Source of the DNA: Natranaeroarchaeum aerophilus
GTDB lineage: Archaea; Halobacteriota; Halobacteria; Halobacteriales; Natronoarchaeaceae
Direction: 5' to 3'
Assembly (NCBI RefSeq): GCF_023638055.1
Contig: NZ_JAKRVY010000010.1
Span: 1-64,000, forward strand
DNA: 64,000 bases
Below the pieces are notes generated by a model. It searched no databases. It worked only from the letters and a program-made list of their open reading frames with translations, and had not been told where the DNA came from. The position numbers were made by a program, and so were the translations under genes. Shown here piece after piece: positions 17,234-18,060 of this stretch (positions are counted from its first letter, which is position 1; each line of letters begins with the position of its first letter).

Positions 17234-17683
17234 ATGAGCGGTGGGGGATCTACTATCGATATACTGCAGGCACGGCTTCGCTCACTGGCATCCGGCGGCC
17301 GACTCGTCCGGTTCGCTACTGTCGGCCTCGTCGGTACCACGATCGATTTCGCCGTCCTGATCTCGCTTGTCGAACACTGGGAACTCCCGCTGGAACTCGC
17401 CAAGATTATCGCCGTCGAGGCTGCGATCCTCGTCATGTTCGTTCTGAACGACCGCTGGACGTTCTCGCAGTGGGGGAGGGACGGCTACCGGTCGCTGCTG
17501 GCACGCCTCGCCACCTCGAACGCCGTTCGTCTCGGCGGACTCACCGTCGCTACTGTCGTGCTCTCCGCACTGGTGCGGGTGTTTGGCGTCCCGTACCTGC
17601 TGGCCAACGCCGTGGGTATTGCCTGTGGTTTCGTCGTCAACTTTCTGGCGGAGAGCTACTTTACCTGGAGCGTCCACGAGTGA
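17234..17683 (+). CDS. GtrA-family four-helix membrane protein
   Basis: The 149-residue protein has the GtrA/DPMS pattern: FATVGLVGTTIDFAVLISL as helix 1, a second helix ending in FVLNDRWTFSQWG, and two more helices with LLANAVGIACGFVVNFL and YFTW near the end. GtrA proteins are thought to help flip or handle polyprenyl-linked sugars for surface glycosylation. No glycosyltransferase is adjacent, so its substrate is unknown. Homologs begin at this same position. Confidence 0.9.
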   Translation: MSGGGSTIDILQARLRSLASGGRLVRFATVGLVGTTIDFAVLISLVEHWELPLELAKIIAVEAAILVMFVLNDRWTFSQWGRDGYRSLLARLATSNAVRLGGLTVATVVLSALVRVFGVPYLLANAVGIACGFVVNFLAESYFTWSVHE

Positions 17684-17746: not shown

Positions 17747-17821
17747 AGCGGGATGGGATAGCCAGGAGATTCCGGCGGGCTCATAACCCGCAGATCGGTA
17801 GTTCAAATCTACCTCCCGCTA
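17747..17821 (+). tRNA. Initiator tRNA-Met (CAT)
   Basis: The acceptor stem AGCGGGA pairs with TCCCGCT, followed by discriminator A at 17821. The anticodon stem GCGGG/CCCGC encloses loop CTCATAA with anticodon CAT. The T-arm is GGTAG-TTCAAAT-CTACC. A1-U72 in the acceptor and three consecutive G-C pairs at the bottom of the anticodon stem identify it as the initiator rather than the elongator. There is no intron, and CCA is not encoded. Its 3' half is duplicated twice downstream. Confidence 0.93.
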
Positions 17822-18060
17822 TACTTTTGCCGCGAGCAACTCCGCGAGCGGCAAATATCGAATGGTGTAGATTTGAACTCAAGGACAAGCGAGCCAGTCG
17901 AGCGCAGTCCTCATAGTTCAAATCTACCTCCCGCTATACTTTTGCTGCGAGCAATCCCGCGAGCAGCAAATATCGTACGGAGTAGATTTGAAATAGACAA
18001 CGAGGGAGCACTGCGACCGAAGTTGGCGTAGTTCAAATCTACCTCCCACTTTATTTTCGC
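17799..18060 (+). repeat. Three copies of the tRNA-Met 3' end at a 115-bp period, with nested hairpins
   Basis: A 32-nt segment starting in the T-arm (17799-17830) recurs without change at 17914-17945 and, with changes, at 18029-18060; both steps are exactly 115 bp. Copies 1 and 2 are each followed by a hairpin (TTTGCCGC/GCGGCAAA at 17826-17855; TTTGCTGC/GCAGCAAA at 17941-17970) and then by an inverted T-arm copy (17867-17878, 17982-17992). Such tRNA-tail copies usually mark att sites of integrated elements. No integrase gene is present. The array and what follows fill the gene-free interval 17822-18173. Confidence 0.8.

Follow-up and report, generated by a model that had tools for sequence, protein, structure and literature searches.

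Arrays of non-coding hairpin cassettes bounded by tRNA-tail copies behind tRNA genes of Halobacteria, an apparently undescribed repeat type

The rtT repeats of Escherichia coli tyrT lie downstream of a tRNA, and each of them starts by duplicating the 3' end of that tRNA; they belong to one enterobacterial operon, have longer units than the haloarchaeal repeats described here, and are not known to contain an inverted T-arm. T-loop attachment sites of tyrosine integrases (archaeal families SNJ2, pR1SE, and HSTV2) give a direct repeat from the T-loop to the tRNA 3' end, with the tRNA restored, and tRNA genes are targets of haloarchaeal integrases (reviewed in PMC8371274). Integron attC arrays are tandem and polar and lie next to intI; inverted arms surround a variable hairpin, the structure is kept despite sequence change, and a folded single strand is the likely substrate. 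A survey of archaeal integrons leaves Halobacteria unmentioned in its main text (PMC9668308). Haloarchaea also contain PATEs, palindrome-associated, MITE-like elements related to IS605 that are non-coding, palindromic, and repeated (PMC3119063).

Each of these four systems shares some anatomy with the repeats analyzed here, and each fails a defining feature. The locus lies behind the initiator tRNA-Met (iMet) gene in a 64-kb stretch of DNA (the window) from a haloarchaeal genome of 3.29 Mb in 32 contigs (G000). The order of a unit is the tRNA, a T-run with hairpin 1, an inverted T-arm of the same tRNA, hairpin 2, and a copy of tRNA positions 53–73 (the tail); units are single or arrayed, with at most five tail copies, and their length of about 45–214 nt leaves no room for genes. 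The direct repeat and the restored tRNA are common to these units and T-loop attachment sites; however, between their repeats the units contain neither an integrase nor cargo nor any kilobase element, and they have a conserved hairpin grammar with an inverted T-arm, at many tRNAs at once. With attC arrays they share the inverted arms, the structural conservation, the tandem polar order, and probably the folded single-stranded substrate, whereas their core is GTTCRAAY rather than GTTRRRY, their cassettes are non-coding hairpins without an ORF, and it is a tRNA gene that anchors the array. No rtT match is seen in the window, where RF00005 alone passes the Rfam gathering threshold. Like PATEs, the units are non-coding, palindromic, and repeated in haloarchaea, but their location is restricted to the downstream side of tRNA genes, where a 21-nt copy of the target accompanies them; six genomes with at least three units have no Y1 transposase, and Y1 transposases are dispensable for the units. 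The searchable literature, whose coverage is partial and no proof of novelty, holds no published account of tRNA-tail hairpin cassettes, and their arrays are apparently an undescribed genome-wide repeat type.

Table 1. Features of the initiator tRNA locus in the window (positions counted from its first nucleotide).
Feature	Position	Strand	Basis
Initiator tRNA-Met(CAT) gene	17747..17821	+	ARAGORN, Rfam RF00005
Repeated tail: tRNA positions 53–73, the final 21 nt	17801–17821	+	Boundary profile
Unit 1, T-run and hairpin 1 (stem 17826–17855, tandem G.A pairs within the stem)	17822..17855	+	Fold; covariation with 25 other hairpins
Unit 1, inverted T-arm (anti-tail), reverse-complementary to the T-loop and T-stem of the tRNA	17867..17879	+	tRNA-specific at other tRNAs
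Unit 1, hairpin 2, flanked by the anti-tail and tail copy 2	17880..17915	+	DNA fold z = -6.0
Tail copy 2, exact match to tRNA positions 53–73	17916..17936	+	Sequence comparison
Unit 2, T-run and hairpin 1 (stem 17941–17970, compensatory pair 17946/17965)	17937..17970	+	Fold
Unit 2, inverted T-arm	17982..17992	+	Sequence comparison
Unit 2, hairpin 2; core and next tail common to the first unit of congener G001	17993..18030	+	Comparison, fold
Tail copy 3 (2 mismatches in 21 nt), then a decayed T-run and hairpin	18031..18051	+	Sequence comparison

A sequence-only reading had described three copies of a 32-nt piece of the iMet tail at 17799, 17914, and 18029, in steps of 115 bp; these are present as claimed, with copies 1 and 2 identical across all 32 nt and four mismatches in copy 3. 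Both hairpins fold as that reading proposed, the pair 17831/17850 (C-G) being replaced by 17946/17965 (T-A), and the inverted T-arm does enclose a hairpin: hairpin 2 when paired with the tail copy that follows, or hairpin 1 when paired with the tail of the tRNA itself. Within the 64-kb window, matches to the strict hairpin-1 motif are confined to the two units, compared to 0.04 expected in shuffles. The arrangement is far above chance, since copies of a tRNA's own tail are found within 400 nt downstream for 21 of the 42 tRNAs of the genome and for 0/42 upstream or with shuffled tails. Just upstream of the tRNA (17234–17683) is an ORF for a small membrane protein, putatively GtrA-like as judged by eye; several relatives seem to share this neighbor of the initiator tRNA.

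Searches behind tRNA genes of haloarchaeal genomes recover the unit across Halobacteria. Own-tail copies follow 15 of 29 tRNAs in a congener and 9 of 30 in a member of another family, with almost none upstream and none for shuffled tails, and tails of other tRNAs compared to the same flanks match at four or fewer mismatches in only 1–2.5% of comparisons. About a third to half of the examined haloarchaeal tRNA genes trail such arrays. A region search in 59 relatives shows that many repeat the tail 80–150 nt behind the same tRNA. At least one tail copy is present at 69 of 128 iMet loci (a few of the 128 being one locus reached twice), and 18 of these 69 have two or three. In non-haloarchaea of the phylum, mostly at iMet loci, 2/30 have a tail copy, and on our reading both are tandem whole iMet genes, the matches being full-length duplicates. 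The grammar pattern derived from iMet units (ATTTGAANNAG, 15–45 nt, CGTNGTTCAAAT) matches 73/117 Halobacteriales genomes, with 0 matches for the reversed-pattern control and none in 12 non-haloarchaeal genomes. All 30 of the pattern-matched loci examined are directly behind a tRNA gene (Glu, Thr, Lys, Gly, Ile, Leu, Ser, Arg, Val, and both Met), about 23 of them with a perfect tail copy. Beyond the sequence-only reading, units occur at tRNA genes of nearly every isotype, with hairpins common to different tRNAs, and a phenomenon of the initiator tRNA only is rejected, as many other tRNAs bear units.

Six genomes of genus g25 in family f12 (G095, G102, G109, G116, G142, and G148) have no strict unit match, compared to nine matches in G044 of the same family; hence, unit load is lineage-dependent. 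A second iMet allele (tail CAGTAGTTCAAATCTACTTCCCGCTA) has no units in Natrinema and Natronolimnohabitans (L088, L112, L127, L129, L136, L138, L140, L167, and L168), and is possibly carried by mobile elements. At L194, two complete iMet genes are about 160 nt apart, and the DNA between them does not show the unit grammar.

The tRNA-to-copy identity is about 0.8–1.0 at positions 53–73 and falls to background on either side (72 iMet and 43 other loci), and these repeat edges are those of a T-loop attachment site. The inverted arm has, on average, 1.00 mismatch of 11 nt to its own tRNA and 4.34 to permuted tRNAs (lowest permutation 3.09); it also retains traces of the acceptor end (2.85 matches vs 2.40 permuted, reached in 0/1000). 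Tail copies and inverted arms thus track each tRNA in sequence, while hairpins 1 and 2 are common to different tRNAs. Distal tail copies are more decayed, mean mismatches by copy order being 0.97, 1.63, and 4.60. The first tail copy lies 82–136 nt beyond the tRNA end (5th–95th percentile, 110 loci). Spacing differs among loci, and a conserved 115-bp period is rejected; the exact period in the window is a local coincidence of two units of equal length. Of the conserved folded unit of fixed period suggested from the window, the folded unit stands, given the covariation and the homologous loci, and the fixed period does not. Homologous loci lacking both period and compensation would have spoken for chance duplication; the homologous loci seen here have lost the period but show further compensation.

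The same sequence-only reading had considered a stack of satellite or excision scars, which is not borne out, with no coding DNA or integrase between tail copies at the examined units and no unit pattern in IMG/VR viral contigs. More generally, the units might be interior-deleted remains of ordinary plasmids or proviruses that target tRNA genes. Direct repeats that begin in the T-loop and extend to the 3' end do define the T-loop class of integrase attachment sites, and tRNA genes are the integrase targets named in the review cited above (PMC8371274); however, interiors with one conserved grammar, a narrow length (82–136 nt), and no coding remnants, absent as a pattern from viral contigs, make this origin highly improbable. 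Hairpin 1 is likewise absent from phage and plasmid collections. A viral attP origin is rejected: the iMet tail occurs in six IMG/VR contigs, in all cases within complete Met-type tRNA genes, and these contigs do not look haloarchaeal. Matches on plasmids are either iMet genes that the plasmids carry together with units of their own or unrelated tRNAs. Neither excised circles nor free cassettes are seen, including on phage records. Tyrosine recombinases, counted as PF00589 proteins, are present in 111/114 genomes, and unit load correlates neither with their number nor with that of Y1 transposases.

Covariation was assessed for 26 aligned hairpins of one class. In this set 93.1% of cells pair, a share biased upward because the hairpins were chosen by a filter requiring at least six of eight outer pairs; the number of pair types is not dictated by that filter. 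Eight of the ten pairs change on both sides, a level that 0/500 shuffles reach, and slid controls collapse. A tandem G.A step (CGAnC ... GnGAG) is invariant in the 26 hairpins, being partly demanded by the filter, and its inner pair is A-T in 14 cases, G-C in 11, and G-T (G-U) in none. The C(GNA)G triloops are preferred on the tRNA-sense strand (62/211 triloops, antisense 10/141), and frequent inversion of the module is unlikely, because this sense-strand loop signature is retained. Among hairpin tetraloops, GNRA accounts for 4/123 and UUCG for 0. Strictly isolated mismatches, counted this way since a looser count is inflated by misaligned G.A regions, are G.T in 13 cases and A.C in 6 in the hairpins, compared to 21 and 0 in tRNA acceptor stems. 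In DNA, GNA minihairpins and Y-GA-R steps have exceptional stability. Taken together, the hairpin features indirectly point to single-stranded DNA.

The units might instead act as structured RNA, transcribed as tRNA trailers in which the hairpins serve as a terminator, a processing signal, or a small RNA, and tail copies would form a switch by pairing with either the anti-tail or the 5' acceptor strand. The structure is on the tRNA-sense strand, the covariation is strong and consists of compensatory changes, and the predicted RNA fold of 17747–18060 joins the tRNA 5' acceptor strand to tail copy 2. T-runs follow 85% of the unit-bearing tRNAs and 69% of tail copies, compared to a background of 5%, and two RNA 3' ends are found behind a tRNA-Pro gene of Haloferax volcanii (PMC7237163). 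However, the T-run terminator comes before the hairpin, roughly half of the tRNAs are without units, and units turn over even inside one species. The rarity of G.U intermediates at the inner pair, the lack of preference for GNRA or UUCG loops, and the absence of Rfam matches other than the tRNA also weigh against RNA, which we regard as a rather unlikely explanation. An ordinary intrinsic terminator is rejected, as the T-run precedes the hairpin and the tail and anti-tail would be left unexplained.

Hairpins are widely shared, by different tRNA genes and by different families. One hairpin 1 (71 nt, from tRNA-Asp) is present in 36/114 genomes, where it immediately follows the tails of Asp, Gly, Ile, Lys, Ser, Val, and other tRNAs. 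An identical hairpin 2 core occurs at Arg(ccg) and Lys(ttt) in one genome, Ser(tga) in a second, and Thr(cgt) in a third, and one hairpin 1 family pairs with different hairpin 2 families (L105/L109; L115/L123/L163). Orthologous flanks of G000 and its congener G001 align after whole-unit shifts of 66–130 bp, mostly beside the tRNA. Extra DNA is seen in G001 at Arg(cct) (about 109 bp), Val(tac) (111 bp), Ser(gga) (119 bp), and Phe (about 130 bp), and in G000 at Val(cac) (about 108 bp) and Glu(ttc) (about 66 bp); with two genomes, gain and loss are indistinguishable here. Between two strains of Haloferax gibbonsii, the tRNA is nearly identical, as is all sequence starting with tail copy 2, and the cassette that separates these parts is unrelated. 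Such strain-to-strain swaps could be ordinary homologous recombination between the tRNA and the flank.

Local fold-back replication and slippage would account for the arrays with no dedicated enzyme, the hairpins self-priming the copying of tails and the tails driving unequal recombination and gene conversion. It agrees with the alternating orientation of the tails, direct then inverted, the partial acceptor end kept in the inverted copy, the near-perfect palindromes, and the tandem units with partly shared hairpins in the window and in H. gibbonsii ARA6. It is at odds with the identical edges (53, 73) at all tRNAs, the same hairpins at different tRNAs, the conserved non-Watson–Crick motifs, which templated palindrome repair would not be expected to yield, and the restriction to Halobacteria among the genomes sampled. 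We consider fold-back quite unlikely.

The edges, as expected of T-loop recombination, the attC-like fold, the polarity of the array, and the whole-unit differences beside the tRNA therefore favor site-specific insertion and exchange of non-coding cassettes at the tRNA T-loop, a reading that we hold with belief and doubt in equal measure. A site-specific event in the T-loop, between positions 52 and 53, would insert, remove, or swap cassettes. The 21-nt tail would be the recombined or duplicated segment, and hence the tRNA 3' end and the T-run terminator would always be restored. The inverted arm may pair with the tail copy across hairpin 2, so that a single folded strand yields a double-stranded site, as in integron attC; this would probably be the tRNA-sense strand as single-stranded DNA. 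The hardest fact is that a cassette carrying its own attachment site fails, as a sole model, on tRNA-specific tails combined with shared hairpins; the tail may be either duplicated from the target at insertion or corrected later by gene conversion. More tentatively, Halobacteria may have a distinct recombination system, with an enzyme not yet recognized, in which T-loops are the insertion sites for folded single-stranded non-coding cassettes that form integron-like arrays at many tRNA genes.

In an archaeal class rich in model organisms, a repeat system that accompanies up to half of the tRNA genes appears to have been overlooked. If the cassettes are mobile single-stranded hairpins, they would represent an integron-like process anchored on tRNA genes, relevant to the frequent use of T-loops as integration targets and perhaps to how structure-encoded recombination sites arose. 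If the cassettes are RNA, an undescribed structured trailer follows many tRNA genes of haloarchaea. Under either reading, the arrays affect the annotation of partial tRNAs and assembly, and offer fast-evolving strain markers. An array of similar build, its tail resembling that of tRNA-Gln (TTCGATATCCGCCCGGGACTA), is located at a contig end (L079, G000:C2:478000-480123); hence, arrays may break short-read assemblies.
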